64,000 nt of DNA from Polytrichum commune (lineage: Eukaryota; Streptophyta; Polytrichopsida; Polytrichales; Polytrichaceae): assembly GCA_950295325.1 (NCBI GenBank), contig OX485809.1, forward strand, positions 24,118,001-24,182,000. The letters are read 5' to 3'. The notes beneath the pieces are model-generated. The model was not told the origin of the DNA. It saw nothing but the letters and a program-made list of their open reading frames with translations, and ran no database searches. Below are positions 10,427 to 31,000 of the stretch, one piece after another; position 1 is the stretch's first letter; each line of letters opens with the position of its first letter. A program made the translations under genes and the position numbers.

Positions 10427-10430
10427 AGGT
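10427..10430 (+). repeat. Target site duplication, left (AGGT)
   Basis: AGGT immediately precedes the left inverted repeat and is repeated at 27658-27661. Joining the flanks with one AGGT gives 'cacgAGGTGTAGAAG'. This matches the neighbouring repeat unit 'ctttAGGTCTAGAAA' at about 10330, a plausible empty site. Confidence 0.75.
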
Positions 10431-10458
10431 AACACTATATTCGTTAATTGGAGACTTT
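10431..10458 (+). repeat. Left terminal inverted repeat
   Basis: The repeat starts AACACTATATTCGTTA and continues TTGGAGACTTT. It matches the reverse complement of 27630-27657 at 27 of 28 positions. Directly inside lies a subterminal dyad, GAGACTTTGGAAAGTCTC (10450-10467), which could form a hairpin. Confidence 0.85.
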
Positions 10459-10867
10459 GGAAAGTCTCAAAATAAATTGGACCCGTAGTTTCGGATGCGA
10501 ATATTGTGAACGTAGGGAACATGGGGAACAATGGCAACATAATGTTCGAAAGATCCATATGTGATGAATATATATGTTTCTAAATATAGTAATTATTTGG
10601 GGGATAATCAAAACTACGCCAACACAATATTCCAATGTCACAAATTCACAATTATTTTGTATTTTTGATTTTGTATTGAACAAAATTAATGAATCTATAA
10701 ATAGCCATCTGATTTTATATCTAGGGACTCTTGGATGCGTATCCCAAACATAACATCTTAGCCAATTGTGGGTGAATTGAACGGCACATCCCAAACGCAA
10801 CAATATTAAAATAATTTGACAGTGTGTATAAGAAATTGCAAATTAGCATCTGCAATATAATTATATA

Positions 10868-10950
10868 GTTTGGACTCCACATCCGTAAACACAAACATAT
10901 AAAAAACATTTGATAGCGCATGTGAAGTTGGATTCCACATCCGTAAATCA
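10868..10950. repeat. Two decayed palindrome copies
   Basis: 'ggactccacatccgtaaac' (10872-10890) and 'ggattccacatccgtaaat' (about 10929-10947) keep the right half-site ATCCGTAAA and a degenerate left half. They lie downstream of the stop of the left gene. Confidence 0.5.
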
Positions 10951-11087
10951 ATACAATCATGATATATAATTGTAATCTATAAAATTGCTATAAAATGTGT
11001 CTAATATAGTATTCGACCCCAATGTCATATATTTCATGAAAAACCAAGACACATTTCAAATAATTGTGGTCCAACCCTACGTCAATA

Positions 11088-14000
11088 TCATTCTCCATCT
11101 TCATCTTCAGCTTCATTTCCATTCTCGACATCGTTTTCTGCAGCAGCAATACGTGCCAAGTTGTCTTTGGCAAAATCTATATGTTTTTGGGGGATGGTCA
11201 TTGTCTCTGATTTGGAACCTTTGCGTGGTTTCCAAGCACAAAGTATGGTATCTGTGTTTATCCATATTGGTTCGTATGCTGAGTCCATTGTCCATTTGAA
11301 ACCTTTTTTGGTGTCCCACCCTAAATATGTGCGGAGCACATTTTGATCTTTGGTGCTGGGACGGCAATATTCCACCTCAATTTGATGAAAATTTGGGCTA
11401 GTTGGAACAAAATTTGGTGATGACAATGCTTTTACCAACCAAATCGGTTTAGGGTGCTCCTCATCTCCAGGACGTACGAGGATCATATACCCTTCGTAGC
11501 AATCAACAGCCACACGAAATGATGGAGCCGGACGATTACGAGCTGGGCCAACATAATGGTCGTCCGCTGCGAACTCTTCACGGATGTCCCCATTGTCGAA
11601 GAACATGGCCTCAGATTCCACGATTGTCACTCGGCTTTGTGGCCAAAAACCTTGTGTCAAACATGAATGTGTTTCGACATCGGGTGCTAGCAATGCTGAG
11701 CGAATGCGATCCCAGTACGCAATCAATGGTTCGTGGGTATCCCGAACACGCCTTGTGATGTCTTCCTCGCACAATTCTTTCCAATATTGGATGAATCCGG
11801 ATATACCTTTGATGATTTCTAGTCCATTCCTCATGGGGTTGGGTTTGCAAGGCTTCGGCTCCCCATTAGGTAGCATACATTTGCCTTCTTCGTTTTGGCG
11901 CCATACGAGTATCCCTTCCTCTGGACCCCAATCCGGGGAAGTGCACAAAACTTTGAATTGCATGGCCGGCAAACCATCATCACGCATATAGAATCGGAAT
12001 TGTTGAGCCTTGGTATGGCCCACTAAACGGTCACCTCCCTTAAGAATGAATGGTTCGATAAACGCTTTGAAATCGGGCACTTCTTCAATCAAATGCGGGA
12101 TGACTGGCACATTATCCAAATCCATGTATGATTTCATGAGAAGAGGAATCGTCGGAAAATCCTCCTCGTGCAACTTCATACTCCAACGTCCAAATGAAGC
12201 GTCAATGTCATCATGCGTGTGGCCAACCATCAAAAAAGACACAAACACTTCTTTGAAAATGCCCTTGGCTACGAGCAATGACCAAAAACAAAACACGTAT
12301 CGACATTTGTTGTCTTTGGCACAATTGTCCAGTTGCACATGTAGAGTTGGAGGCAAAGGTTTAGCAAGAACGGTTTGTTCAGGCGGTTCTTGCAGTGACG
12401 ATAGACATACTTCTTTCCCCTCTAGCACAGCCTCATAAATCGGTGTTGTTCCACATCCAACAAAAAGAGCGCGAGAGGATGATGTTGGCGGACTCTCAAG
12501 ATCTCGTAGAAGTTTTGCAAAAGACCCTACGGTATGATTGGCGTCGCCTGGATAGAAATCCAAGCCATAATGTGCATACTTGACGTCCACATGGCCATGT
12601 GCGATCATACCTGAATTAAGACATACAAATGAAAAGTACATTCCAATATCATTTATAATAAGGAAATTCAATTTTTCCGCAAGCAGGCCAAGAAAATGAA
12701 CAAACACTTACGGATGTACATCCGTAACTCTTAACGATGAGTATGTGGGTTCGCAAAAAAAATGTGAAAACCAACGAACCTGTGACAGATATTGGGAGCT
12801 TGAAATATCCATCTGTAGCCTTTATTTTCCGTGCATAACAAGGGCACGCAGTCTTCGCATGGTCCATTTTGTCATGAATGATTGTCAAAACCTCATTCGG
12901 CCTCATTATCGATAATGCGCGATTCTTGTAGTAGTCTTGACGGTGTGCCTCTTGGTTGTTGACATGCTCAATGTATTTCCGTTGATGTCTATTGTGCGAC
13001 TCAGTCCCTATGGGATGTGCATCTCGAAGGCCCTTGTATTTTTCACAAGCAGAACACCTGGCAAACTTATCCCCAGGCCTCTTCGTAATGTACTCTGCAA
13101 ATTGTTGATTCTTGATCACACTCAATTTTGACAACGAAATCGGCCCACATCCAGCCTTTTCGCCAACCTCATTAACATCCATAAGTATGTTCTTCCATTT
13201 TGTCCCTGTAGGCAAAACCATCTGGACAACCTTTTCCCCCGACGGCAGAGTCCGTGTTTTGTGTGGCATCGCATCTGCTAATGGCATAATGATGGTTGAT
13301 AGTGTTGCAGCTGCTTGGAGTGTTGCCTCCCTGGGCTTCTTTGTACCAGAGTTGCCATGGAACCGAGAACGCCGTCCTTGCAGCGAGTAGTTCCGGAACC
13401 TATAAAAATCTGCCTTTGAAACTGCATGTATAATGTACCATGCCGTGCAGCATACCTCTATATTTTCCAAGGTCACAACCTTACGACCTTCGGCATCAAA
13501 GTGCATGTTGCGATGGACTTCAAGTTTCTTTGCAGATCGCATCCGAAAGTCCGCAAGCCACATCTCTTGTCTCAAAGATTTGATTTTGTCACGGGGAAAT
13601 AATTGGCAACACATTTTTGCACAACAATCCTTTGTTGCTACGGACCTAATAGATGTGTCTCCCAATGTTAGATCTCGACGACGTTGCGTGGGTTCACGGG
13701 GCACGCGAACGGAATCATATTTACGCCGACCTTGTCTAGGACGCATTGTGGCGAACAAAGTCTTTTGTATTTCCTCAAAACGACGTGCATGATTCCACAA
13801 GCTGACACCATCGTGAAGAACACTTCGCAACGGCCATCGACGAAGAGAGAATCTCCAACCAGGAGGTACTTCCAATGGATGTAAGGAGTTCAAAATGCAC
13901 ACCCCAACATCTTCCTCCCCAAGGGGATTTGCATCAATACAGTCCATAGGATTTGAGTTCCTACAAACACCATTGGCCACGGGGACGCCGTATCCATTGA

Positions 14001-14106
14001 CTATGACAACATCAAGATCAATCCATTGTTCCCGCGAATAACCCTCACATGTTGGTATGAAATCATCCTCTGCATTGGCGACACCAATTGTAGTTTCATG
14101 TTCCAT
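11088..14106 (-). CDS. DUF7869-type protein, DDE-transposase-like
   Basis: Two exons, 14106-12780 and 12610-11088, join in frame (intron 12611-12779, GT-AG, phase 1) to give 949 residues. Seen: a C-x2-C pair (C351, C354) followed by an H-rich R/H/Y segment, MDHAKT (about 414), LHVQLDN (about 533-538), GHTHDDID (about 572-579), a C-terminal SH3/chromo-like segment and an acidic tail. Known: the LDN and GHTHxDID blocks typify DUF7869 proteins, which I recall as expanded in non-seed plants and thought to have an RNase-H-like fold. Inferred: the aspartates at MDH, LDN and DDID could be a DDE/DDD catalytic set, which would make this the transposase. The start is uncertain. An in-frame ATG at 14184 is followed five codons later by TGA (14167-14169), then an open frame runs into the ATG used here. 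Confidence 0.75.
12708..12727. repeat. Intronic palindrome, symmetric variant
   Basis: TTACGGATGTACATCCGTAA is a perfect 20-nt palindrome in the intron of the left gene. Compared with the main form, four central bases differ, and they change symmetrically in both arms, so dyad symmetry is kept. Confidence 0.85.
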
Positions 14107-14325
14107 AACACCTTCAAATTCGCTAGCATAGCTTGACGCTTCCGAAGAGAACTCGAATGCACTATCTCAGACGTTGGAATCCATGGCCACTACAAGTGAC
14201 CCACATGAAGAGTATGTCAAAATATCCCATTCAATAAATGTCATGGATAGTCCTAACGCTTATTGTCAATGAAACACAATGTCAACAATAGTGGATTTCA
14301 TGGCCTGGAAACAAAGACACATTGG
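14107..14325 (-). promoter_or_regulatory. 5' leader of the left gene with possible splice acceptor
   Basis: On the minus strand 'cacttgtag' followed by 'tggccATGG' (ATG 14184) looks like a splice acceptor just before an upstream start codon. If it is used, the palindrome array at 14.33-15.28 kb would lie in a 5' intron, as in the right gene. No TATA box could be assigned. Confidence 0.3.
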
Positions 14326-14863
14326 TATACGAACGCGCGTACGTATATCTCCATGTAACAACATTATCAGTGCAAGCACGCGCATACATATGTCTTTATT
14401 TGTTCATAGTCGGCGGAAAGGTCCAGACAACAAAAACATGACAGTTTTATGGGCGCGCACCCGTAAATCTCTTCGTGGTCAAAGAGGTCAATATCATGCG
14501 CAAATGTTTTCGTAAACTATACAACATAGGTATACGGACGTGCGTCCGCAAACATCCGAATGTCAAAAGTCAGTGTTGTGCAAGACACACAGAGGTTTAG
14601 GAAACCAAGATGTCCAGGTGCCAGGTTCCTACTGTGTATTATGAATGTCAAAATATTATACTATGACACATAGGGTGATGTAAGCTTAGGGTTTAGGGAT
14701 CTTATACCTCCATTGACCGTACAGTCTCAATGTAATATTCTACATGGCACATAGTGAAAAGTATGGAACCAAAGGTTTGCAGGTTTACGGATGCGCGTCC
14801 GTAAACCTCTCTGTACCTCATTACTAGCACAAATAGGTTTAGGTTACTGGACGTGAGTCAGAA
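14326..14863. repeat. Diverged palindrome copies upstream of left gene
   Basis: Copies of varying decay lie at 14326-14347 (TATACGAACGCGCGTACGTA core), about 14447-14466 (half-decayed), 14532-14552 (ACGGACGTGCGTCCG), 14781-14808 (28 nt, one mismatch, GGATGCGCGTCC core) and about 14841-14863 (strongly decayed). Many changes are C-to-T or G-to-A at CpG positions. Confidence 0.75.
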
Positions 14864-14949
14864 AATTTTCATGACAATACAGTCTCGTTGGTATACTATA
14901 CATGGCAAGTGGTCATGATGTCAGCTCAGGTGCAATACCGAACAATGGA

Positions 14950-15285
14950 ACAAAAAGGTGCAAAAGTTTACGGACGCGCGTCCGTAAACCTCAATGTAGA
15001 TGAAATAGGTCAAGTATAATTCTCACTGCAATAGATATCCAATCAAGCAAGAGGTTAAAGGTTTACGGACGCGCGTCCGTAAACCTCAATGTAAATGAAA
15101 TAACTCAAGTATAATTCTCACAAAAATACATATCCAATCAAGCAAGAGGTTTAAGGTTTACGGACGCGCGTCCGTAAACCTCAATGTACATGAAATAGCT
15201 CAAGTGCAATTCTCACAGAAATAGATATCCAACCAAGCAAGAGGTTTAAGGTTTACGGACGCACGTCCGTAAACCTCCGTGATTT
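14950..15285. repeat. 95-bp x4 tandem array with palindromes
   Basis: Perfect copies of TTACGGACGCGCGTCCGTAA start at 14968, 15063 and 15158, and a one-base variant (GCACGTCC) at 15253. The spacing is exactly 95 bp each time. The spacer is conserved ('cctcaatgta', 'gaaataactcaagtataatt'-like, 'atatccaatcaagcaagagg'). The array lies 5' of the left gene. Confidence 0.95.
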
Positions 15286-16497
15286 GCGGCGCCATAATAG
15301 GACCATTTCACCAGGAACGATACTTGCCATAAACAAAAATCAATCACTATAAGGATCCAGACAGTGCAATCCACATAAAATTGGCTCCACTAATGGGTTT
15401 ATGGCTTGGAATTTAGTGTTTAGGGTATAAAAGGTCCATTGCAATAGGATCTGTACCTGCACGAAATAAACATCCAGAACACTACAAGGGTCCAAGCAGC
15501 GCAACCCACATCTGAGATGCAAAAAGAGTCCCTTGGTGGAGGGGTGTCCCCTTAAGTACTGATCGTTTCCCTTGGATCCGTTTTCCAACATAGGATACTA
15601 GCCACCATCTACGTCCTATAAATAAAAACCTAACATTACTACATTCCGTGTGCCAGCCTTACAATGGAATGTGTATTCATAGTGGACAACATGCATAGAC
15701 GATGAGTCCACATAATGACAAAGCAAAAGGCATCTACGTATTTATGGTGGACAACAAAGAAAATAGGCTAATAATATATGAGCATTGAACATTGTTGAGG
15801 GGTGGTTTATAATATTGAAGTACCTAATATTGAGAGGTCATTGTAGAACTAAGAGACAGAAAATTATAGTGTCGTGTGAAACATCAACCACAACAACAAC
15901 AATAGTACATGGAGTATAAAAATACGTGTCATTCAAAATTAAACTAGCATCTATTTTATTGTTTTGCATACGATGTAATGATATTCACTCCAATATCATG
16001 TTATCTCCTCTCATCTAGCATTTAAACTAGTAATTACATTTGCCACCACCCTACCATCCAACCCGTTTAATTTACCCACTTTTACACACCTATACATAAT
16101 TATACTAATACGTACACAAACTTTGAGCGCCTAGATGCCATGAAAATAGCACATCTATTGTCATAGGCACTATGGGTTGCTTTAAAATCAATATTCTCAA
16201 TTTCCTCTCTTAACTTTAGGGCCCCCTTCAATACATCAACATTTATTTCAAAAAAAATAATACTAGCATTCTTAATGTACTATACGTGAGACAAAAAACA
16301 ATTTTTAGTACCCCATGTACATTATCTACAATATTGACTCAAACAATAGCAGTTGTTGTTCTAAGTAACATTATGAGCCCAACAAACCATAATGGAGAGA
16401 AGGGGAGGGTAGGGTATCCAAATATTATAAAGGCAAGCAATTTTAAGTTGGTGACAGAAGGGGGATACTCTCATTAGTTCATACGTGGTACCCTAAA

Positions 16498-16562
16498 TCC
16501 TAAACCCTAAACCCTAAACACTATACCCTATACCCTATACCCTATACCCTATACCCTATAAC
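16498..16562 (+). repeat. Interstitial telomere-like tract
   Basis: CCTAAAT, then CCTAAAC/CCCTAAA units, then about five units of the variant CCCTATA. The first part matches the plant telomere repeat CCCTAAA; the second is a homogenised one-base variant. Confidence 0.8.
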
Positions 16563-18431
16563 CGCCCACCCCTGAACAAACACAACGACATACGGTACGC
16601 ATGGTTAACTGAATAACTCCCAATACATGTGTAGCCTTAAGTGGAAGTAATTCAAAACTATATGACTACCTTTAAATTTTGTAAAATAAAACCATAAACA
16701 TTTCAAATGTGAAGCAAATTTAGGGGTAACCTTACCTTTCATTTTTTTAAATCTTTCTTTGGCTTTAAACCATTTGCTTTAAACATATACTTTTGATGAA
16801 AGGTTTTGAAGATCGTATATTGGTATTCTATAATCGAGTCCTAAACACAACTCACCACCGAAAGAAAACTCCAAATATAAACAAGTTTGCTACTACTTAT
16901 AAGCGATAATACAAGCTGAGGCCTATGTGTGGAAGGATTGGATGGATCCGAAAGGTTGTTTAATGTACAAGAGGGATGTACATTCAACACATACCCATGC
17001 ATTTTGTTTTAATACAAGCTTAGACCTATGTGTGGAGGGATTGAATTAATCCGTAATGTTGTTTAAGGTATTACAAGCATATGAATTCTCCCCATATCTC
17101 GATGTTTCGGTTTTGTTAATTGCGTTTCACAACTTATTGCGATAATTGAGGGATTCACAAGTATTTCTTGGCAAAGTTTCATGAGAATTTGTGGCCAATT
17201 GGTATATTGCCCCAATTGCATTTGAATCCCACCTTTGAGAAGAAAAAGAATTCTTATAATGAAGTTAATCAACAAGACATCCTTTTATTGAATATTATTA
17301 CTATTCTCGAAATATAGAGTCCCCTCCATAGCTCGGGGGGTGCACTGTACTAAACATGTACGAGTTATACGTGAGTGCACAGGAGGGGTATTGATTTGGA
17401 CCTTGCCGTATTGCATATACATATGGTATACATGTTATAATTTATAGTTACGTACATATATGGAAGGCCTTTAAAAAGTATAGAATAATTGTACTTGTAT
17501 GGTATTGTTACTATACTATATATCATAAGTGTTCATATTGGATAAGTTTTCATAAGGTTTGGTTTGTTGGGAGAGTTTATAGGATGCGGAGGAAGTTTGG
17601 TAATCGTTGGGTGGAGTATAGGGATCCATTTGACTTGATGGACCGTCCATCAAACGTGGAGATTGGTTTATGTTGGTATCAAAAGGGGCTAACAACAAGT
17701 GGACATATGATCTTATTGATCATTCCATGGTAGACTTCGAGACAATAATTGCATTTGTATACTTATGTTAATGACTCTCGGGGGGGGGGGGGGGCAGTCA
17801 TTGGTTGGAGTAGCAATATACGTGCAAACAAATGATAGGGTATTTTAAAAACATGGGGGCAAAAATTTATAAATGGACTTAAGAGTAATATAGGGTATCA
17901 AAAATGGCACTGGACATCTTTAAAGTAGTATAGGGTATGGAATAATTGGTAATTTGGAATTATAAGTAATGCAAGCCATTTTTCTATTAACCCAAAGTAG
18001 AAATTTATATAATGATAGCATGTGAAAAAAAATAAGAGAATTGAAAGTAATACCCCCCTATATCCTTATTTTTTTAACACACTGCCCCCCCGAGTAATGA
18101 CTAATATATATGAATGGATGTTTTTTTGTGTATACATATTGTTGCTTGTATATTTATTGTTGCAATTGTATGTGTATTACTTCATTTCACAAAAAATCAC
18201 TTGTATATATTAGGGGGTTTTTAGAGTATGCAGTGAACGCACGTGATTCTAGGTTTTAATGAAAGGTGCTCCCCCACTCTCCATAGAGGCCACACTAGAA
18301 ATTGTAGTTAGTTTCTCTCATTGTTTGGAGTTCCAAAATGATATTATTATTATTATTGATGTCATTTAATTGTTGACAATGACATAATAATTTACTCAAC
18401 CTCACACCCTAATATAATTTCCTAAAATAAT

Positions 18432-18490
18432 GAATACTTTCTAGAGCTCGTATGAATATTTCACTCATTATCAAAAGTGAAGAGAAGAGG
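18432..18490 (-). repeat. Dispersed repeat family B fragment
   Basis: 'agagctcgtatgaatattt' and 'attatcaaaagtgaag' match the copies at about 45510 and 46500. This fragment lies inside the 17-kb element. Confidence 0.5.
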
Positions 18491-18599
18491 CAACGAGATG
18501 GCTCATTTTATATTTAGAGTGACATTTAGTGTGACTTTTAACTTGCCTTAGCATAAACATAAGATGTTATTATGACATAATATGATAATAAAATCACCA

Positions 18600-19661
18600 A
18601 ACTAAGTATAAATTAAACCCCTATTTCAATACCAAATATAGACCAGTAGGGTGATGCCACGTAAGGGTATAGGCCGGCGATTGGGCGCGACGTTTGGGGT
18701 AGGGACACGTGGAGGCACGCCATTGTTTTAGGGTTCCAAGTACTCCAGCACCCTTTCGCCCTCGCTCTTCGTGCTTTTCCTTCCTTCTCTATCATCTCTT
18801 CCTTCCGTTCCTTCTACTGTTGCTCTTGCTTCTCTTGCTTTAGGGTTATAGGGTTTCAAAGTACACCAGCTCCCTTTTGCCCTCCTCTTCGTGCTTTTGC
18901 TTCCTTCTCTTGCAACTCTTGTTTATCTTGTTTCTCTTGTTTCTCTTGTTTCTCTTGCTCATCTGCTCTTGCTTCTCTTGCTCATTTGCTCATCTTCTCT
19001 TGCTCATCTGCTCTTGCTCATCTTCTCTTGCTCATCTACTCTTCTTCTCTTGCTCATCTTCTCTTGCTCAACTTCTCATCTTCTCTTGCTCATCTGCTCA
19101 TCTTCTTTTGCTTCTTTTGCTTCTCTTCACTTTCTTCTCTTGTTTCTCTTGCTTCTTACCCTTATCTTCACTTTCTTCTCTCTCTTCTCTTGCTTCCCTT
19201 GCTGGTCTTGCTTCTCTTTCCTCACAATGCAAAACTCATTCTTATTGGTCAATTGCTGATGCGCGTCAGAGCTAGAGTAAGTTCTCCTTGTTTGCTGCTC
19301 ATTTGCTTATTAGCTCATTAGCTCATTAGTAAGTTTTGCTTGCTGCTTGCTTGCTTGCTGCTCATTAGATCATTAGGATGCTCATTGTTGCTTGCTACTG
19401 CTCATTAGGTTGTTTTCAGTTGTTGATCTCAGTTGTTGCAAGGGTAATTAGTGTTTCAGATGTTGCTCATTAGGGTTTCAGTTGTAGCTTCACCATGTAG
19501 TTCATTATATTTTTTGCATACAAATCAATAGTTTCCTTTCACTTGTGTTGCATGAATCTGATTTATGAGCAACTTTTTTGAGTAGTTCTCAATGTTGAAT
19601 CATGCATGTGCACATTGAATTACTAGAGGTTTCTGACCTCAATTTTATTGTTCATTTGCAG
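18600..19661 (+). promoter_or_regulatory. Putative promoter/leader of right module
   Basis: A GC-richer island (about 18650-18730, with GCCACGT and ACACGTGG motifs) is followed by a duplicated segment of about 115 bp (18735-18840 and 18840-18940, each with 'agggtt', 'tccagc' and 'ccttcttctct'-like blocks). Then comes a strong pyrimidine-rich tract of TCTTGCTCATC-type repeats (about 18890-19230). CT-rich tracts of this kind are common in plant 5' UTRs. Long frames across it are low-complexity artefacts. Confidence 0.4.
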
Positions 19662-19989
19662 TTGGTATTAGCTGCAGCAGGAGCAGCTAGTTGTGGTTTA
19701 GGAGCAAACACTCTAGAAAGGTAAGTTTTTTAGAACATTGCAATTGCATTTTGTATGATTGCAATTTTGGGTTGTTGTGGTTTAGGGCTTAAGGTTAGCA
19801 TGACAGAATGTGAGATTCCAGTTTCAAGGAATTCTGAATTTGTTTAGTACTTTGTCTATGGCTACATTCTAAGAATCATTTAGTTATGGACATGTCAGTG
19901 TTCTGAAAGTGCCTTATGTTGTCAATCTGCAGTGCAGTGAAGTAAAATTGCATTCTTATTTGGAGGGCAAAACCATATTGGACGACAAG
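19662..19989 (+). other. Candidate 5' exons of right gene
   Basis: Two stretches have good splice borders: 19662-19720 (after TTTGCAG, before GTAAGT) and 19933-19989 (after CTGCAG, before GTAAAG). The second is open for 19 codons in the phase that runs into the ATG at 20857. If they are used, the 135-bp palindrome array lies in an 867-bp 5' intron (19990-20856). No start codon was identified upstream. Confidence 0.35.
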
Positions 19990-19999
19990 GTAAAGTCCC

Positions 20000-20540
20000 G
20001 AAAAACACGGAGCATTAATGAAAACATTGGAATACGCAAACATTACAATAGCCTTTATAATCCTCAAAGTTTACGGACGCGCGTCCGTAAACTTTGTGGA
20101 TCTTTGTGTAGGTGAGAGACAAGCCTCTCAAACAACATATTACGCAAACGAAGCCAAATATTGTAATATTAGGCATATTAAAATAGCCTTTATAATACTC
20201 AAAGTTTACGGACGCGCGTCCGTAAACTTTGTGGATCTTTGTGTAGGTGAGAAACAAGACTCTCAAACCGCATATTACACAAACGAAGCCAAATATTGTA
20301 ATATTAGGCATATTAAAATAACCTTTATAATACTCAAAGTTTACGGACGCGCGTCCGTAAACTTTGTGGATCTTTGGGTAGGTGAGAGACAAGCCTCTCA
20401 AACAATATATTACGCAAACGAAGCCAAATATTGTAATATTAGGCATATTAAAATAGCCTTTATAATACTCAAAGTTTACGGACGCGCGTCCGTAAACTTT
20501 GTGGATCTTTGTGTAGGTGAGAAACAAGACTCTCAAAAAT
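20000..20540. repeat. 135-bp x4 tandem array with palindromes
   Basis: Four 32-nt perfect palindromes occur at 20065-20096, 20200-20231, 20335-20366 and 20470-20501, each with the 20-nt core (starts 20071, 20206, 20341, 20476). The period is exactly 135 bp. The spacer is conserved and unrelated to the 95-bp array's spacer. Because 135 is divisible by three, both strands show repetitive open frames; I treat those as artefacts. Confidence 0.95.
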
Positions 20541-20656
20541 ATATGTAGGTGAGAAACAAGACTCTCAAAAATGTAGGTGTGAAACAAGACTCTCAAAAAA
20601 ATATTAACCGTAACTTGAATACATTGATATTTACCACCATACTATCTTTGCGAAGT

Positions 20657-20676
20657 TTACGGACGCGCGTCCGTAA
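20657..20676. repeat. Single perfect palindrome
   Basis: TTACGGACGCGCGTCCGTAA, upstream of the right gene and outside the 135-bp array. Confidence 0.95.
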
Positions 20677-20777
20677 CTTATAGAGATATTTGAGTATATA
20701 ATATACGCGTTATGCGTATTTGGAAGAAATGTATCTTTTCATTTGGATCCAAAAATATAATTGAGACAATTTGGAAA

Positions 20778-20803
20778 ACTTTACGAACGCGCGTTCGTAA
20801 AGT
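20778..20803. repeat. Palindrome with compensated change
   Basis: A 26-nt perfect palindrome with core TTACGAACGCGCGTTCGTAA. Relative to the main form, G-to-A in the left arm is matched by C-to-T in the right arm, so symmetry is kept. Confidence 0.9.
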
Positions 20804-20856
20804 ATGATCTATATCTTTTGCCAAGAATTCTAACTTATCTATCTTATCATTTGCAG

Positions 20857-23800
20857 ATGGCATCTAAAAAGAGACATGCAATTGAGATGTTCGCAGAAGC
20901 TCTCATTCCTCCGCTACCAGAAGCCATCAAAGACATAAGTCCCAACGACCATTACAAGCCACAAGATGAAATTGTGGATAATTGGACAGTATTGGTAGAA
21001 AAGGACGAGAAAGAAATATTTGTGCTTAGATTTGCATATCAAATGAAGACGGACATAGATGAAGCTGAGAAGTGGATAAAGCTTAAATCGTGGACAGTAG
21101 AGTGTGCAGTGGCACAAGGGGATTATGTAGTAATAGACCTTGAGAAGAAAGAAGATCGGGTCACTTTCATTTTGCACGAATCCTACCACCCCTTCAACAA
21201 AAATGAGTGTGAGAATGCTAGTACAGATGCGGCTTGCTTCAATCTCCAGACGGAGTTCCAAGACTATGCATGCAATGCACCTTGGACGGGTAAGCGGCTT
21301 GGACGACTATTGAACAATGTAACAAGAGTAAATGGAGCCTTGCTAGAGGCCAGAAAGGGGAAGGATAAGAAAAAACAAGTCGTTCCTGAACGACCTAAGC
21401 GTGTGCCTAAACCAGTGCCGGAATCCTCAAGGTCCTCGCAGAGTGGTGCATCAAGAGGGAGCAGACAGGCGAGTAAACGCTCTCACTCGCAGATGGACTC
21501 TGGACTAACAGAGGGTCCGGATGTCAGCTCTACACTGACTGTCGCTCCACTCCTCAAAAATGGTCAACGCCCTGACGCCGAACTCTCAACAAAAATATTC
21601 CAAGAGTTCGATGAGAAGACGAAGGGATGCTGGCCCCTTGGCAGGTATTTTACTTTCGAAGTAGACGTCTACAAATGCCACAAGGGCACCGAAAGTATGA
21701 ATACCAGAGCAAAAGAAGAAAGCGGTGTATGGTGGCAAATGAACAACATCATGAACAACCCCAAGTTTGACAGGCAAACCATTTGTGTGACACCAAAGGA
21801 TCCTATCGTTGAAGTCAACGAAAAAAATTGGCCGATTCTCAAGAATGGAGAGTTCTACATTGTCGACGGCCAACATAGTGTAATGGCTGCAAAAGCTCTC
21901 CTTGAAGACGACGAGTGGAAAAGCCCATTAAAGGAGACAATCCGATATTGGAAGGCATTCGTCGTGCATTCCAAGGACTCGAACCAACTCATAGCAATAT
22001 CTGCCTTCATGAACCAGGGGAATAAAGTGAGGCAGTTCGAGGCTTCATGGGCAGCCAACATCGTGGCTGGGAGGACCTTGTGGGTGGAGCACGAATGTCC
22101 CCCAAAAGAAAGAGATAATGCTGTCGTGAAGAACCCAAAATGGCAGGTATGTTACTCAAATAGATTTACGGACGTGCGTCCGTAAATGTGGCCCTTCTCC
22201 TCCCACTGCTTCAAATATTTAAATTTAATTTGTACTGAATTCAATGTTCTGATTTCTTGCAATTCGCGCCTCTTGCAGACATTCAGCAATGCCATATTGA
22301 CAAAGTTCTCGAGTATAGACATGAAGACAAGCGGCATGAAAACAGTGCATGAATTAAAAGGCGAACTCAAGCTCATCACTGCAACAGAAGAGACGTGGTC
22401 AATATGGTTGCGACTTTTCGATGCCCACAACAACGGCGACCTTGTCAATCCAGATACGGAGAACACCTACAAGAGCGACTCAAAAGTTAAGGTACCACCA
22501 ATCCTGCGAGAGTTCTTTCATCCCCTCCAAGGATTGATGGACTCGGAGCTGTACAGGGCAGCAGAACACATTCTTCTAGAAACTCCTAGAAGAACTCTGC
22601 CCTATCCCAAAATCTTTCTGAAGCGGCCGAAGCACATGAAGCCATCCACGTACCACATTAAGGAATGGTGCGATTACAGAAAGAAGAAGACCATGGCTGT
22701 AAGGGAGATTAGCAAATTGCTACCCACCCACAACCTCATTAATAGTGATGGTGAGATCGTGTGGGAGAATTGGAGGAAGCTGAAGGGTGAATACCACATC
22801 AATGGCGTCTCAATGCGAGCTTTGATAAGAGGGGCATCATCCTTCCTTGCCCAACGATCCAGAAGGAACGAAAAGAAGGGATCCATCGACGAGAGGGAGG
22901 CAGGGTTGTATGTTCACTTTCTCGATAGGAAAAAGAACGCGAAATTTGGAGGGTTTGCAAGATTCTGCACGGTCGCAAAGGGCATGAAGTTCGGCGCATG
23001 GGACACCCATGCTTCAAGAGCCTCTGTGAGAGATGACCCCAGGGGTTGCCCTTTCGCCATTTTTGATTTTCGTGCAATTCCCGGAGCATGGAAGCAAGAC
23101 GTTGCGGGAGCACCCTTCTACGAGCCCTTCTTAAAAGCCTTCAAGAGCTATCGCTCGCCTGCCCTCTTCGAGCCTCATGTGTGGTTATGGATTGTAGAGC
23201 AAGAGAGGTCCACATCCATTGTCCATCTGTACACATCAACGATGGACCTCGAATACGATATGTACCACAGCACCTACATCCCAACGAAGACAGAAGGGAT
23301 CACTTTCATTCAAGAGGCAAGGGGGGTGAAGCAAGTGGGAGCTGTGCAGCTTTATTTCTTAACACGCAAGTCTTCCCCAACTGGGCGATTGCCCATTAAA
23401 CCACACGAGGTGTTCAGGAAAGTCTATTCGTTGCCGCCACCACATCCCGAGGAGCTTGTTGAGGAGACAATGCATGCAATCTATCCGGCGTTCGAGCTCC
23501 GGATGGACTTTTATATAGGGGTCTTGAAGGCTTTAACTGTCATGAGTGAGACAGTTTACAACGTCTTCGGAGGCACGAAGTTTATGTATGCAGCACTGGT
23601 GAGTATTTGTTTGTCTTTCTACCCACCTATCTTTTGCATAGTTATTTTACGGACGCGCGTCCGTAAAAACCCAGTATCAGGTGCATGTGAATTTTACGAC
23701 CGTGCGTCCGTAAAATTGTCCAACTTTTGAGTGGTGGTTTTACGGACGCGCGTCCGTATAACGTGTTGACATCTAGCCTCATTTATATGCAATCACCACT

Positions 23801-25265
23801 ATTGTTCTTATCTAATTTTCTTGTTATGGTCCAGATGCTTGGCTTGCAGGTGAATTCTTTTGTGCAGGATTCCGACTACGATGACGCCCATACTCACAGG
23901 GTAATGGCCTCCAAAATGGATATCCAGGACATCATGGACGTCCTTACACCCCATCCTGTTGTGCCTCTTTCTTCTAGAGAAGAGGCAATGCCCGGAATGG
24001 AGACAGACCCTGAAGAGGACCAAGATCCCAGTTCCCCAAGAGCGCAACCCTCCACACAGGAGCCTTTACACGGCCTTGTTCGCGACCCAATTAATCCAAG
24101 TGCTTTCCTGCTGGGAACAGACGACACGGATGCGCAGGAGGCACGCGTGAACTTCACTCCGATAAGGGTCCCTCATACCCCTGTTCTCTCACCTTTTGGG
24201 ACTCCCACCTCTCGAGTTGGATTTCCCTCAACTGCGGGTCCATCTCGTGCTCCAGGAGTTATGGCCGAGAAGGATGTGGACCTTGCGGCAGAAAGCGGAT
24301 GCACCGCTTCATCTGGAGGGGGATCTCAACATTCAGATCTACCCCCTATGGAGGGGAGGGATGTGCTGGAGTTGATATTGAGGCCTGATATCTCTCTATA
24401 TCGTGAGAGTCGACGAAAGAGGAACAAGACGCCATACAACGAATACCCTGAAGGCGCGGTCTTGGAGCTCTCCGATGAAGACGAGGATGAGATTAGGATT
24501 CACAATGCCATCTCTGCCTTGCCTACGGAACCTGGCAAGGTGAAGAAAGAGCCGATGTCAGTGTCCGAATTGGATGAGAAGATGGAGAGGCGAATGAAGG
24601 AAGAGCTTGACCAACGGCTTCGAGAAGCTAACGAGGAGCACGCCAAAAAGATGGCCGCCATCCAAGCTGAGATGGAGCAAGCTAGGTTGGAGTCTGCTCG
24701 AAGGCACGCCGATCTCATGGCCCAAAATCAACAGTTCTTGGCCCAAAGTCAACAATTTATGAGCCTGATGCAGAGCTTGCAGGCAAGACCCCCTGTAGTC
24801 TATACAGCTCCCGATGCCGTCATGTCTATGCCCCCCACTCTCATGCGGCCTCCGTCTAGTAGCCATGCGGTGTATATACCCGAGCATGCTTATCCAGCCC
24901 CCACGTTGATTGTCCCGCCCTCTCCCCTTGTTGTCGCCACTCCAGAGGAGCCCTCCTCTCATCCTACAGGAGTGGAGGAGATACCGGCACGTGACATGGC
25001 GGGTGCCGCCGAGACAGATGTCAATGAAGGCAATGCCCCCATCGGCGATGAAGATGTACATATGCGGGGCAGCCAAGACTCCACAGATGAGGATCAGCCT
25101 TACGTGGATACTCAAGGGTCGCAAGCGGCTGGAGACACCTTGTTGGTGGTCGAAGATCTGGACAATTTTGCGGACGCGCGTCCGGATCCTGTGCCCATGA
25201 CGGGGCCAGGTGAGGGAGGCACTGCTGGCGCGGACCTCGCCCTTGAAGAGGTAATCAACCTTTGA
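20857..25265 (+). CDS. ParB-like plus methylase-like protein, multi-exon
   Basis: Three exons joined at phase 0: 20857-22146, 22279-23598 and 23835-25265. The first ATG directly follows a TTTGCAG acceptor. Seen: a basic/serine-rich linker (about 170-240), YIVDGQHSVMAAKAL with D337-S341, then ISAFMNQGN; in exon 2, VYNVFGGTKFMYAAL (857-871), spliced to LGLQVNSF and SDYDDAHTHRV; then a proline/acid-rich region and a coiled coil (about 1113-1186). Known: DGQHR/DGHHR motifs mark ParB/DGQHR domains, and 'VxDxFxGxGTT...AA...lg...D..Y..A..R' marks amino-methyltransferases; bacteria and phages fuse the two. Inferred: a ParB-methylase-derived protein whose methylase core is degenerate (D replaced by N, GTT by GTK, no DPPY). 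It is divergent from the left gene. The last exon may instead splice at 25250 to 25591. Confidence 0.6.
22164..22187. repeat. Intronic palindrome variant
   Basis: ATTTACGGACGTGCGTCC followed by GTAAAT. One central mismatch (GACGTGCGTC). It lies inside the 132-bp intron 22147-22278. Confidence 0.9.
23645..23759. repeat. Three palindromes in one intron
   Basis: Intron 23599-23834 holds a perfect copy (core 23647-23666), a two-mismatch copy (23691-23716, ACGACCGTGCGTCCG) and a near-perfect copy (23740-23759, last base changed). Confidence 0.9.
25171..25184. repeat. Palindrome core inside coding sequence
   Basis: CGGACGCGCGTCCG is embedded in the third exon and read as Ala-Asp-Ala-Arg-Pro. It lacks the TTA/TAA arms. 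Confidence 0.85.
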
Positions 25266-25278
25266 GCATGCCTCCCAC

Positions 25279-25300
25279 GTTACGGACGCGCGTCCAAAAC
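25279..25300. repeat. Partial palindrome after third exon
   Basis: TTACGGACGCGCGTCC followed by AAAAC: the left arm is intact and the right arm decayed. It falls in the alternative intron 25251-25590. Confidence 0.8.
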
Positions 25301-25590
25301 TTCCTTGTCTGCCTCCTTCGTGGCGTGTGTATATTATCGAGTTCAATCCTCGACTTCGCCCGGCGGGTGGATACAATTTTGTTAGCATAGATTCCATTAA
25401 CTTCAACAGATATTTTTTGCGACAATGTATATTATTCACCAAATGTATATCACCAATTACATTAATACCAATTTTTCAACTGGATGGTTCGGATTATTTT
25501 TGGCCTTATAATTTGTGTTGAGTTTATCCATGCTTGTCAATTGGTTTTCTTGAGTAGTACCATTTACCTAGATAGAATGTTCCATCACAG

Positions 25591-26358
25591 GGTCCGTCGG
25601 AGATATGTCGCAACCCCGCGGGAAAACCAAGCGCGCCCATGATGAAACCGTTCATAATATTTGACCTCAATGGGGTGCTTTGTCAATCCAAACATATCTC
25701 GAATAGTGCGTCCAAGGGGCCCTTCCGTAGTCCACAAGACATGGATTACGGCGGACATTTCGATACTCTCATAAATAAGAAGGTTGTACGTGCCCGCCCC
25801 GGTTTGAGGAGCTTCCTTCGTGAGGTCCTTGGCTTCGCCCATGTCATCATCTGGAGCTCTATGCTCATGGACAACACGAAGGCCATCGTCGGTTTCCTTT
25901 TCCGAGAACTCGCAATGCCATGCTTGCTTCTCGGTCAAGAACACTGCGATGACCTCTATGACCGTAGTGGCAATATTGTACCCAAGGTCGGAGGGGGTCG
26001 TGGGCCTCAATTCTTAAAGGTCCTGAGGAAGAACCTCTGGGTGGGCGTCCCTATGTTGGAGGGGGTTCCCCACGGTTGTTGGCCCACCCCGGATAACACA
26101 CTCCTCATTGACGACAGCCCGGCAAAGAGTATTCTCAATCCCCCGGGCAATTGCATATTCCCGGATCCTTGGGAAAGCGATAGAAATGACAACTTTCTAG
26201 AGAGTGAACTAAGACCCTACATTAGGAGGCTTGCCTATCACCCCGGAAGTGTCCCGGATTTTGTGCTCTCCAACCCAATTGGCAATAGGCCTCTAGGCCC
26301 ACAAGATGAGGAATTTAGGAGATTGTACGGCTACGCTAGACTCAATAAATTAATATGA
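25591..26358 (+). CDS. FCP1/NLI-type HAD phosphatase-like protein
   Basis: Read from the ATG at 25639 this is 239 residues. The frame is open back to 25591, immediately after an acceptor (CCATCACAG). A phase-0 splice from 25250 (GAG before GTAATC) would fuse it to the ParB-like protein, giving about 1,597 residues. Seen: FDLNGVL (D9, N11), VIIWSS (S73/S74) and LLIDDSPAK (D158, D159). Known: these are HAD motifs I, II and IV, spaced as in FCP1/SCP-type phosphatases that act on phosphoproteins; motif I is usually DxDGT/V. Here the second Asp, the general acid/base, is Asn, a DLNG form I recall from some plant FCP1-like proteins. Catalytic competence is therefore uncertain. A host gene captured by the element is an alternative origin. 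Confidence 0.65.
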   Translation, partial: GPSEICRNPAGKPSAPMMKPFIIFDLNGVLCQSKHISNSASKGPFRSPQDMDYGGHFDTLINKKVVRARPGLRSFLREVLGFAHVIIWSSMLMDNTKAIVGFLFRELAMPCLLLGQEHCDDLYDRSGNIVPKVGGGRGPQFLKVLRKNLWVGVPMLEGVPHGCWPTPDNTLLIDDSPAKSILNPPGNCIFPDPWESDRNDNFLESELRPYIRRLAYHPGSVPDFVLSNPIGNRPLGPQDEEFRRLYGYARLNKLI

Positions 26359-26450
26359 AAACTTTGATGATTTTGGGTTTGTACTTGGACTCTCCATGTA
26401 AATATCTAACATTTCTCCCCTTATCTTTGTAATGTATTTTTGTGTCTTAG

Positions 26451-27347
26451 TTGCCTCACCAAGCACCCAAAAGTGTCGTCAATGGCATGTCTGCATCTCA
26501 GGCAGACACCGGCTCCCTTTCCCTTGGTATGAGCGACGTTGCAATGCCTTCACTATTCCAATATTCGGCCGTCGATGCTGCCTCTGCTGTTGATTACTCC
26601 AAAGACTCCGGGTTTGAAGACGGAGTCGTGGATAGCCCTCCTGCAAAGGTTGCAAAACTCAATTACTCTCCAAGTCCATCTCCATCTCCCCTCCGCAGTG
26701 AGAAGCACGTCCGTAACCCACGGTCGACCAGACGCCTTTGCATGGATGAACCCCAAATTGATGTCCCGGCGTTTGCGAACGTCCCTCTCGGGCTTGTATC
26801 TACACCCGTCGATGTCCCAAAAGCTCTAACCAGCGCCCCAAAGGCGAAGGTGCCCAACTATTGGCATTCTCAAGTTTTTCCTTGATGATTTCCGTGTATT
26901 AGTGCATTTCAACTTCTTGGGTTTTTCGGACTTCCATCCGTAACTTGTAACCACTTATACTAACCCACTTCATTATATATATTTATGGTCATTGTTCAGA
27001 CCCCAATGTACACGAATGTGGGCCGGGCATCATCGACTTCGTCATTGGATAGGCGAACACTGAAGACAGCTTCTTGCGAGTCTGATCGTTGTTTGGCCCT
27101 ACGGAAGAGTGCAAGACGTTCGGTTTCCCAAACGCATTCGTATTCCACTTATTCGGAAGGGGGTCGGCAAATATGGGCAAATGGCGCATATTCGGGGTCA
27201 ACAAATAAACAAGGTTACAGCCGCGGACCCGAGATCTTTAGAGCCATGGAGGCCATGAAAGCAAAGGAACGTGAAACGGCCGTAAATGCTAATAATAGTA
27301 TTGCAAAAGCAAAAGTAGTGAGTCGTAATCATGATCCGAACGTATAG
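26451..27347 (+). CDS. S/T-rich protein of unknown function, two exons
   Basis: The frame opens immediately after a TGTCTTAG acceptor at 26450. It can be spliced at 26874 (CAA before GTTTTT, a weak donor) to 27000 (after GTTCAG), both phase 0, giving about 257 residues ending near 27347. The protein is Ser/Pro/Ala-rich with an SPSPSPS run and a basic C-terminal part; I recognise no family. No initiator ATG is at the border, so this is probably the 3' end of a longer transcript, perhaps an alternative end of the upstream gene that skips the HAD exon. A decayed palindrome (TCGGACTTCCATCCGTAAC, about 26926-26944) lies in its intron, and an ACGTCCGTAAC half-site at 26708 lies in its first exon. 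An AATAAA-like signal is at 27443. Confidence 0.4.
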
Positions 27348-27629
27348 GCTATATTAACATACATGTAGTTGTGGAATTATGTTTCTAGGACTTTCGCCTA
27401 ATATTGGATATTCCACTTGCATTTTGTACTTCAACCCCTATTCAATAAATATGATATTGATTTTCCATATGCAAATGTTTTCATATATCCCATTTTCTTA
27501 TTGTTAATGTGTAGTTCCATGCATTTGAGTCTCTTATTTGTTTCCAAAATTGGGAACATAGCATATTTTTAGTGTTTTCATTCCTATAAATGTGAAAGCC
27601 ACGTCCTTAAATAGTCTCAAAATTAACAA
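27348..27629. other. Right subterminal region of the 17-kb element
   Basis: AT-rich, no gene. A GAGACT-type motif near the right end echoes the subterminal dyad of the left end. Confidence 0.4.
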
Positions 27630-27657
27630 AAAGTCTCCAAATAACGAATATAGTGTT
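27630..27657 (-). repeat. Right terminal inverted repeat
   Basis: On the minus strand this starts AACACTATATTCGTTA and then TTTGGAGACTTT. It matches the left end at 27 of 28 positions and is followed by the duplication AGGT at 27658-27661. Confidence 0.85.
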
Positions 27658-27661
27658 AGGT

Positions 27662-27841: not shown

Positions 27842-28282
27842 TTATTGGCACCCATGGATCTTGGGGATATTGTGGACGGATCCAAGGAACCTCCACCTTC
27901 CAATGCGGATCCTAAAGTGTTGAAGGAGTATTAAAAATGCGTCAAGAATGTCATGTCTATCATCAGTCTCAACTTGGCAGACAACCAACTTGTGCACATT
28001 AAAAATTGTAAAGAACCCGCGGAGGCGTTTAAGACCCTTCCATACATTCACGAGACAAAGACTTTATCTAATATTCTTTTCATATGCCGCAAATTTTTCA
28101 CATGTAAGATACAAGAGGACGATGATTTATTGGACCATATCAACAAAGTCAAGGCGTTCGCATATCAACTCATTTGTTTGGAGGTACCCATGAGAGACAA
28201 AGACAGTGTCATAACCTTGCTCGAGAGTTTGTTGGCGTCGTTCGAATACTTGATCACCGTCATGGAGACGATGAGAGTGTAG
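27842..28282 (+). pseudogene. Copia gag fragment (UBN2 type)
   Basis: The translation shows SKEPPP, then CVKNVMSIISLNLAD, PAEAFKTLPYIHETKTLSN, LLDHINKVKAFAYQL and VITLLESLLASFEYL. This is the typical order of copia/UBN2 gag alpha-helical segments. A TAA at about 27932 interrupts the reading frame, and the frame ends at 28280 before any zinc knuckle. The copy encodes only the first half of gag and cannot make a working capsid protein. Confidence 0.8.
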
Positions 28283-28289
28283 GATGCAA

Positions 28290-31000
28290 ATGAGTGTTCC
28301 GCACCAAGAATGATGCATTGAGTGAAATTGTTAGGTATAAGGCACGGTTAGTAGCAAAGGGATATTCTCAAGAGATTGGAGTAGATTTTAATGAGACTTC
28401 TGATTCCGTGGCCAAGTTTATCACCATTAGATGCATACTCGCATTAGGAGCAGCCTTGAATTGGAAGATCCACCAAATGGATGTAAAAACAACGTTTTTG
28501 AATATTGGAGGTAGAAACTTATATGGATCAACCGGAGGGTTTTATACAAGAGGGGAAAAAAAATCTTGTGTGCAAACTCAAGAAAACTTTGTACATGCTC
28601 AAGCAATCGCCAAGGGCGTGGTACCACCGTATCAATTTATTCTTCATTAACAAGGGTTTTTGTAAGAGCCATGTGAGCCCAATATGGTGCCTACATGTGC
28701 TCTTAATCGCAAGGGGTTAACAAACTTGGACTTTCATTTGTGTTCAAATATTCAAAAACATAAAAACAAGTTGTGTTCTTAGTTATTACTTGAATTAAGT
28801 TGAAACTAGGGTGTTAGTACTTGAGTGTTAGTAGGAATTGTTAGAGTTATTTAGAGGTTGGTCAATGGGATTCCTAGGCTTGAAGGCTTAAGCTTAGTAA
28901 ACATGGTTCTATTAACCTATATAGATAGTCACTAGATTTTGGCACATCCGCCTGTGGATGCAAGTTGTGTGTAAGAGACTGGATTAAGGTCTGGACCGAC
29001 CTGGGTTCGAATCCGGTTGGTTCCATTGACTGGTGCTATCCCAAGATGAGCTAGTGGTAAAAGCAAGAATAGTCTGTAGGCGGATACGGAGAAGAAGTTA
29101 CTACATATGTGTAAATAGAACCTTCTCAATTACTTTTCATATTTTAGAGGCATTTTACTTATATTCACCTAACCGCTCACGGTTTATGAAGGTTCGCGGG
29201 TTAATTAGAAAGGAAGTCAATGGGTCAAATTAGATTTAAGTTAAGTAATTCGTATGAAGAAATCAAGATATTTGCGAGGGACACAAGGATGGCAACGAAC
29301 GGATGATGAAGACGAACGAATAAAGGATGGCAACGAACGGTGGATGATGCTAAGCGAATGAAGCCGAACGGATGAAGACCGTTTAATCAAGTGGATGGAA
29401 GACCAAGACCGTTGGATCTAGGGATTTTAGGGATGACGGCTAGAGTATGACGGCCGGCAATTCCAACCGTTAGATGTGAGTATGGTTAAATCTACGGCCG
29501 GTAAGGCTTGGTGATGGAAGGGGGTAGTCCCCCGAAGGGGAGGGCGGAGGCTCATTCTCTCTCTCTCACTCTTGCAATTAGGACTATCTTTCTTTCTTTC
29601 TCTCCCTCATTAGGTAGATGAAGGCACAAAGTTCTTAGAAGGAAATGATAGGAATGTTTAGCAAAAGGATTTATAAATCCTATGAGTGTTGAATGACAAG
29701 GTTGGAGTAGGTTTAGTGATAAGCTTGGTAATATGTCATGTGTGTGGTGATCAAGTAATGAACTTCAGTGAGAGGCATTATATCATTAGATCTCTAGGTT
29801 AATATTATTTAGCCTACAACCTTGAACTCGGGTTTTTTCTTTGATTTGTGTGAATATGATACTCGAGTGTTTGTAAACACTTGAGTTTGAGTTAATAAAG
29901 GAAGAGGTGTCAAGTACATTGATTCACCAATTGGAATGGATATAAGTTGCAACTGCTTACCAAGGCCAGTGGAGTTCATGTGAGTCATGAGCTCTCACCC
30001 GGATTACGACGCATAAGGGTGGGAGTTTAGGGCTCACAAGCCAAGCGGATCATTTATTATACGTCAAACAAACGGGAGAGTATTTGTTGGTGGCAATCCT
30101 CTACATGGATGATTTTATCATATTGGCAAGCAATGTTATCCAATTGAAGTGGCTCAAATTGGAGCTCGAGAAATAATTTGAGATGAGCAATCTCGGAGAA
30201 TTGCATTATTATATAGGAGTGGAAGTCCCGTATCATTATCATGAACCAAAAGAGCTATATCGAAGAGATTCTCAAGCGTTTTAACATGGAAGAATGTAAA
30301 CCGGTTGGACCTCCATTCGATGTGAATTCTAAATTGTTAAAACTTTCGGATGAGAAATTTATAAATGTGCAAAGGGAAATGGAAGGTGTTCCGTACAAGG
30401 CCGGAGTAGGATCTCTCATATATGCAATGATGGCCACGAGGGCGAATATTGCATTTGCGGTAAGTACGGTAAGCCGGTCCACCGCATTGGATGGCTGTAA
30501 AACGCATCATGAGGTATTTGAAGGGCACTTTGGACTTTAAATTATCCCTCAGAGGCAGGGATATTGTCTTAACAGGTTTTTATAATGCAAATTGGACGGG
30601 AGATGCAAACAACCAGCAATCCACCACGGGGTACGTGTTTTTTGTTAATATTGGAGTCATTTCGTGGAAACACAAGAAACAACCAACCATTGCATTATCT
30701 ACGACAAAAGCGGAGCACATGGCTACTAGCCATTGTATTAAGGAAGCAATTTGGCTTCAACAACTTTTGGCGGATGTGGGATATGTGCAAGAAGGACTGA
30801 CATCCATCATGTGTGACAATCAAGGATGCATAGCACTTGCAAAGAATCCCACACATCATTCTCGCACTAAACATATCAATGTACAACATCACTTCATTAG
30901 AGAGAAACTAGAAAACCAAGAGATATATTTGAAATATTATCCTACGGAGGATATGATAGCGGACGTGCTAACCAAACCACTTGCAAATGATAGGCATTAA
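28290..31000 (+). pseudogene. Copia reverse transcriptase-RNase H, disrupted
   Basis: The copia RVT_2 signature is clear: YKARLVAKGYSQ, GVDFNETSDSVAKF, NWKIHQMDVKTTFLN, then in another frame YMDQPEGF, VCKLKKTLYMLKQSPRAWYHR. The solo LTR interrupts after KS. The frame resumes at 30044 with LYMDDFIILASN (the YVDD box), NLGELHYYIGVEV, then YLKGTLDF, TGYVFFVN, WKHKKQPTIALSTTKAEHMA and DVLTKPL of Ty1-type RNase H. Defects: a frameshift near 28500, the 1.37-kb insertion, TAA near 30174 and a frameshift near 30480. Protease and integrase are missing because gag runs straight into the RT. Confidence 0.9.
28672..30038. mobile_element. Solo LTR in the copia RT (TSD AGCCA)
   Basis: A 1,367-bp insertion has ends TGTGAGCCC...GGGCTCACA (perfect 9-bp inverted ends, TG...CA) and the 5-bp duplication AGCCA at 28667-28671 and 30039-30043. 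Removing it plus one AGCCA restores the RT frame (CKS joined to QADHLLYVKQTG). No internal second LTR was found, so a solo LTR is the simplest reading. Inside are a (CT)n tract near 29555 and tRNA-like B-box and A-box strings at about 28988 and 29046 in the wrong order for a tRNA. Confidence 0.9.

Follow-up and report, generated by a model that had tools for sequence, protein, structure and literature searches.

Why would one stretch of moss DNA carry the same long, CpG-rich palindrome again and again? The stretch in question, called the window below, comprises 64,000 nucleotides of Polytrichum commune (contig OX485809.1, positions 24,118,001 to 24,182,000), and a large transposon within it contains nine perfect copies of the 20-nt palindrome TTACGGACGCGCGTCCGTAA. 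A first-pass annotation had offered binding sites, methylation targets, replication or partition sites and recombination sites as possible roles. On balance we think it probable that the palindromes are element-specific sites for a dimeric DNA-binding protein encoded by the element itself, likely used for self-specific control. This reading comes from sequence analysis of the window and of relatives of the two main genes of the element, gene A and gene B.

The palindrome is confined to one element

We recovered all nine perfect copies at the starts first reported. At up to six mismatches the number of sites rises to 22, of which 11 are perfect 20-nt dyads; they span positions 12708–26924 and include a perfect dyad variant, at 12708, that falls outside the interval originally annotated. 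All 22 sites lie inside the element and none elsewhere, which upholds the proposed confinement over the 64 kb for which it is shown. An origin by chance had been judged unlikely, and we agree: 18 matches with at most three mismatches were found between 14532 and 25299, against none in 100 dinucleotide shuffles.

With a run of N set aside, every perfect gapless palindrome in the window that reaches 18 bp (12 in all) is the motif or a close variant of it and lies within the element; the remaining three palindromes with 8-bp arms are 16-mers outside the element. Several copies exceed 20 nt, with lengths of 24, 26, 28 and 32 bp; the dyad at 20065–20096 is perfect over all 32. For the half-site TCCGTAA we counted 34 occurrences in the element against one in the rest of the window, and for GTCCGTAA 27 against one. 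As tandem arrays reduce the count, the 22 sites amount to roughly 16 independent ones, among which 14785 and 15063 still have flanks in common. The exact palindrome gave no hit in viral contigs or in GTDB genome contigs, collections that may exclude the window's own genome and records close to it.

Sites are placed in introns and upstream of genes

Eight sites are found upstream of gene A and six upstream of gene B. One more is in the intron of gene A, introns 1, 2 and 3 of gene B hold one, three and one, and the last two fall in an exon and in the 3' spacer. The six sites upstream of gene B probably sit in a 5' intron, because CAG/ATG at 20857 precedes the first coding exon. Two tandem arrays, upstream of both genes, hold eight copies, and the sites at 14968, 15063, 15158 and 15253 form the one with the 95-bp unit. 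Whereas 51% of the element is non-coding, this holds for 21 of the 22 sites (P = 8e-6) and for 15 of the 16 independent ones (P = 3e-4). The clear sites are internal, the nearest being about 2.3 kb from either end (12708 to 10431; 25299 to 27657).

CpG changes and flank symmetry

Comparing 21 sites (26924 excluded) with the consensus, we counted 29 differences. Twelve fall at CpG positions, every one of them C>T or G>A; the other 17 consist of 9 transversions and 8 transitions. All five CpGs are kept in 13 of the 21 copies. CpG changes restricted to C>T and G>A are the trace of methyl-CpG decay, so methylation would have reached these CpGs at some point in the past. In an RNA hairpin the central bases would form a free loop; they are largely retained: the innermost pair is CG in 11 and the next GC in 15 of the 16 independent sites.

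Symmetry continues beyond the 20-nt core. In the 16 sites, 48 of 96 flank cells are symmetric where 34.5 are expected, a value reached by 2 of 5000 shuffles. The excess is found at position -2 (10 of 16 sites with four pair types, shuffle p 0.0012) and at position -3 (11 of 16, p 0.0078), and there is none at -4 to -6 (p 0.31, 0.75 and 0.60). Symmetry is thus kept up, or created, for a few bases past the core, which favours a pairing constraint or self-templated correction as well as a dimer site.

A distant relative carries its own palindrome

The GTDB contigs contained four matching stretches, one of them a relative of gene A. This contig, L001 (CADCWO010000071.1, 4327 bp), is filed under a cyanobacterial metagenome-assembled genome (AVDCRST_MAG81). 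It carries gene A without interruption, and the 944-aa product shares 45% identity with that of the window and 55% with the relative P0005; its best match is P0017 (75%). Since the named relatives of the protein are mosses (P0052, Ceratodon, 59%), L001 is a probable plant contamination of the cyanobacterial record.

The window palindrome is absent from L001 at up to seven mismatches. L001 has instead a 21-nt palindrome of its own, TTTAGCTCGA(S)TCGAGCTAAA, with 12 matches at up to seven mismatches and 7 at up to five, all non-coding and on both sides of the gene; 300 shuffles gave a mean of 0.42 and a maximum of 3. In two copies symmetric CAG..CTG flanks lengthen the palindrome to 27 nt, one of these copies having an internal mismatch. 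This consensus was chosen after L001 had been viewed; an unguided scan of L001 for palindromes (arms of at least 10, at most one mismatch) found three, all of them the same motif. The L001 motif is missing from the window at up to five mismatches, and the L001-type motif gave no hit in viral contigs. Its CpG spectrum, taken from seven sites, is less clean, with 6 CpG transitions, 1 other CpG change and 12 non-CpG changes. Gene A is common to both, and judging from this one contig the two elements appear to have a design in common, namely a CpG-containing, non-coding palindrome of about 21–22 nt bounded by TTTA and TAAA, whose sequence differs.

Gene B relatives can encode the palindrome in intron 2

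Genomic reading frames that pass the end of an exon spell intron sequence, and we used such read-throughs to look for the palindrome in relatives; a back-translation shows compatibility and does not prove the DNA sequence. We found 11 relatives of gene B, of which P0106, P0110, P0111 and P0112 never reach the intron-2 boundary in frame. Seven cross it, and two of these stop within five residues. The remaining five can all encode the palindrome with at most two mismatches (P0109 with 0, P0107 with 1, and P0103, P0104 and P0105 with 2). Only the window consensus was used, and equally good fits were seen in 0–5 of 2000 shuffles, which keep composition only, and in 0 of 3000 random 20-aa coding segments. 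The exact fit of P0109 is FTDARP followed by a stop, and the window's own introns 1 and 2 of gene B score 1 and 0. A dyad altered on both sides at one pair would fit P0103 and P0104, and one altered at another pair (TTACGAACGCGCGTTCGTAA, also at 20781) would fit P0105, so half-sites may change together.

Element ends, genes and surroundings

The inverted repeat at the ends (10430–10458 and 27630–27658, 28 of 29 bp matching) bears out the 17-kb element of the first-pass annotation. Direct AGGT repeats, a possible target duplication of the element, flank it at 10427–10430 and 27658–27661 and include the outermost base of the 29-bp inverted repeat. At the ends, which read TAACACTAT..., CACTAT is flanked by the unequal triplets TAA and TTA, whereas AGGT fits a 4-bp duplication. 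We sought a paralogous empty site within the window and found none.

The product of gene A is probably the transposase. A Pfam scan (E up to 1) returned DUF7869 only and no Mutator-like (MULE) transposase. Gene A has at least 101 homologues at E ≤ 0.001, and those relatives that bear an organism name are mosses; none was found in viral contigs, plasmids or phages. The position of its intron fits relatives with an uninterrupted gene. An RNase-H-like fold for the relative P0005 is a candidate feature of the gene A product, and a profile search of the gene A alignment against PDB sequences gave no match.

Gene B is a gene model whose predicted product ends in a NIF/FCP1 phosphatase (PF03031, E = 1.4e-11). 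It also carries a ParB-like DGQHS motif with weak matches: phrog_1033 (E = 0.017 for exon 1 of the window) and, in the relative P0102 only, PF20188 (E = 0.03, 14.3 bits at a cut-off of 26.8). Both matches sit on the DGQH stretch, and no ParB-like domain exceeds its curated threshold. A YEATS match is sub-threshold as well (E 0.018–0.099). Searching PDB sequences with the gene B alignment as a profile yielded two matches only, at E 0.17 and 0.41, to unrelated proteins. A DNA-methyltransferase-like motif at the end of exon 2 was dropped, being unsupported by Pfam, NCBIfam and PHROGs. The weak ParB-like region, a long stretch rich in proline, serine and charged residues and an FCP1/NIF-type phosphatase make an unusual combination for a transposon. 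Two more open reading frames (ORFs; 144 and 120 aa) on the 3' side of the element, at 26451–27347, have sub-threshold Pfam matches and are possibly 3' exons or small genes.

Table 1 Features of the element and its palindromes in the window
Feature	Coordinates	Strand	Details
DNA transposon, 17,227 bp	10431..27657		ends AACACTATATTCGTTA...
Two half-sites ATCCGTAA	10881..10946	+	10881 and 10939; ~450-510 bp from left end
Gene A, 949-aa DUF7869 protein	11088..14106	-	exons 14106-12780 and 12610-11088; PF25273, E=3.4e-42
Perfect dyad variant TTACGGATGTACATCCGTAA	12708..12727		intron of gene A
Eight palindromes or variants	14327..15272		upstream of gene A; 14327, 14447, 14532, 14785, 14968, 15063, 15158, 15253
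135-bp tandem array	20065..20501		upstream of gene B; four perfect 32-bp palindromes, 20-nt starts 20071, 20206, 20341, 20476
Palindrome 20657 and symmetric variant TTACGAACGCGCGTTCGTAA at 20781	20657..20803		upstream of gene B; 26-bp dyad 20778-20803
Gene B, predicted ~1,597-aa protein	20857..26358	+	gene model; exons 20857-22146, 22279-23598, 23835-25250, 25591-26358
Palindrome variant	22166..22185		gene B intron 1
Three palindromes	23647..23759		gene B intron 2; 23647, 23694, 23740
Degenerate copy, sole one in coding sequence	25168..25187		gene B exon
Degenerate copy	25280..25299		gene B intron 3
Degenerate copy	26924..26943		spacer between 3' ORFs

Other repeats were noted in and around the element. 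A telomere-like ACCCTAA array at 16489–16563, inside the element, degenerates into TACCCTA units. Ty1-copia fragments (gag PF14223, RVT_2 PF07727) lie just beyond the right end, at 27953–28647. Further away are a nested tandem repeat array of 134/402 bp at 46690–47594, with the short unit in 6.8 copies, and a minus-strand 443-aa ORF at 61478–62809, which may be a hAT-type relic; its DUF659 match (PF04937, E 9e-7) stays below the cut-off.

Proposed function of the palindromes

The arrangement of the sites has a known parallel in the target motifs of VANC, the anti-silencing protein of Arabidopsis VANDAL transposons. In the passages cited here, VANC motifs are described as lying upstream of VANA21, within tandem repeats, and in the introns of VANB21 and VANC21 (PMC5735166). 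Like them, the palindrome is a short, element-restricted motif in non-coding DNA (introns and gene-upstream regions) that is tandem-multiplied and differs between related families (parts of PMC5735166 and PMC10398659). Enrichment in non-coding DNA and restriction to the element were both found within the window, growth by tandem repeats is seen in the arrays, and change between relatives is seen in the L001 motif and in the variants implied by the peptides of gene B relatives. Because the layout is that of VANC target motifs (as given in the cited part of PMC5735166), we propose a dimeric element protein as the binder. The likeness is one of layout only: the transposase family and the host are different, and the VANC21 site, in the portion of the literature used here, is the 9-bp YAGTATTAY arrayed in one orientation, whereas that of the window element is a CpG-rich dyad of 20–32 bp. 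As for a VANC protein encoded by the element, the Pfam scan of gene B showed only the NIF domain and, below threshold, YEATS.

In our proposal, the product of gene A or gene B would bind the palindromes as a dimer, and the arrays upstream of both genes together with the intron sites would let it mark the DNA of the element along its length. The bound protein would then act on the element's own chromatin or transcription, either keeping DNA that can be methylated at CpG open or de-silenced, as VANC does on VANDAL, or regulating promoters. What the sequences themselves show is the placement, the symmetry, the restriction within 64 kb, the CpG spectrum, the compatible palindrome in gene B relatives and the other motif in L001; protein binding, the identity of the binder and the anti-silencing effect we infer. 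The CpG content and the methylation trace make anti-silencing the most attractive role, and we treat it as the leading though unproven one.

The early suggestions are partly supported. Binding sites and methylation targets fit the CpG-rich non-coding dyads, the C>T/G>A-only changes at CpGs and the other motif in the relative. Recombination (transposition) sites fit poorly, the clear sites being internal. Replication or partition sites have nothing in their favour beyond the sub-threshold ParB-like matches in the second protein. ParB–parS partition systems do use palindromic sites in several copies, and gene B has its DGQH stretch; the window element, however, is a nuclear transposon, for which a partition function is not expected.

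Several observations weigh against self-specific control by a dimeric element protein. The CpG transitions suggest past germ-line methylation of the very sites. The flanks are symmetric though their bases vary from site to site, a pattern not expected of a plain fixed protein site. Read-throughs into intron 1 of gene B are mixed (n = 4: two clear, one weak, one none): P0105 fits the 20781 variant with 1 mismatch and P0106 fits with 2 (0 of 200 shuffles as good in each case), P0104 has 3 mismatches (5 of 200) and P0103 has 7, that is, no palindrome (188 of 200). The three intron-1 motifs were picked after the tails had been viewed, which makes the intron-2 test the fairer one. The frames of seven relatives enter the gene A intron, two ending after one residue, and the other five (P0028, P0030, P0031, P0034 and P0065; 10–68 residues) are without the palindrome, their best fits of 5–7 mismatches being no better than shuffles; the window's own gene A intron scores 0 against the 12708 variant. 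The 12708 site thus appears not to be conserved and may be private to the window's element or lost in relatives. No DNA-binding domain was identified in either product, and the AlphaFold model of the gene B relative P0102 was unusable (pLDDT 37). The window evidence comes from a single element copy, and among relatives the DNA was read of L001, a gene A contig.

The flank symmetry in particular raises the question of whether the palindromes act as structure, that is, as hairpins in 5' leaders or introns of element RNAs or as DNA cruciforms, for example in splicing, RNA stability or small-RNA production. Flank positions -2 and -3 covary as pairs, the majority of sites are in introns or upstream of genes, and the sites fold strongly as RNA (z -8.2 at the 32-mer, about -5 at two L001 sites tried), although such z-scores follow from palindromicity and for that reason cannot separate the readings. 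We nevertheless consider a structural role unlikely: the palindrome has no spacer and its would-be loop centre is largely conserved, the flank excess is gone at -4 to -6, one of nine folded sites, 23694, hardly folds (z -0.79), and no Rfam family reaches its gathering score in the window. Symmetric flanks of varied sequence and tandem arrays are also the expected leftovers of tandem duplication and self-templated correction of imperfect palindromes, and the gene A intron site is not common to relatives. That the palindromes are just such a functionless by-product seems very improbable to us, as the core is kept at dispersed sites, a compatible palindrome is present in gene B intron 2 of relatives and coding sequence is avoided.

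A protein could also read the sites for other ends. The TnpA-binding sites of En/Spm (CACTA) transposons are subterminal and non-palindromic. The window element resembles these transposons in its multiple copies of an element-specific motif, in their proposed binding by an element protein and in ends that contain CACTAT, but its palindromes are internal, its protein is a DUF7869 protein and its ends fit a 4-bp rather than a 3-bp duplication. Sites of this kind, bound by the transposase and uniting the transposon ends, would suit the transposase-like protein, the two half-sites near the left end and L001, where a gene A element has a motif of its own next to that gene. We hold such end-pairing to be distinctly unlikely: the clear sites keep at least about 2.3 kb from either end and cluster internally, and the degenerate copy 26924 alone comes closer to the right end. 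A smaller chance still is left for a host factor, whether for silencing or as a host transcription factor exploited by the element. CpG-rich dyads with a methylation-type mutation spectrum would agree with it; a host factor would, however, favour a single common motif, while L001 uses another and the window motif is nowhere else in the 64 kb. Hosts may differ, so this is not decisive. A dimeric protein of the element itself is therefore the reading that we carry forward.

Classification and significance

Membership of the VANDAL group was rejected because the transposase is DUF7869 and not MULE. We do not class the element as CACTA either; binding repeats are not concentrated near its ends. 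Tentatively, with less confidence than we place in the binding sites as such, we suggest a family of giant plant (moss) DUF7869 transposons with self-specific anti-silencing convergent with VANC. Each lineage would have its own CpG-bearing palindrome (TTTACGGACGCGCGTCCGTAAA in the window, TTTAGCTCGASTCGAGCTAAA in L001), distributed over its non-coding DNA; a dimeric element protein would recognise it and hold the element free of methylation, and the pair would diversify by symmetric (compensatory) changes of both half-sites. If so, the family would be previously undescribed: a search at the level of titles and the beginnings of abstracts found no description of the palindrome motif or the element, and DUF7869 is absent from the papers searched for it.

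Sequence-specific anti-silencing has been described, in the partial accounts drawn on here, for VANDAL elements of Arabidopsis, and fungal transposons carrying TET/JBP enzymes represent another anti-silencing route (cited portion of PMC12730594). If our reading is true, the moss element would be an independent case in an early-diverging land plant, in which the palindrome itself is a methylation substrate, and would suggest that transposons evolve control sites of their own time and again. The element would further provide a tractable moss system for the co-evolution of element proteins and their sites.

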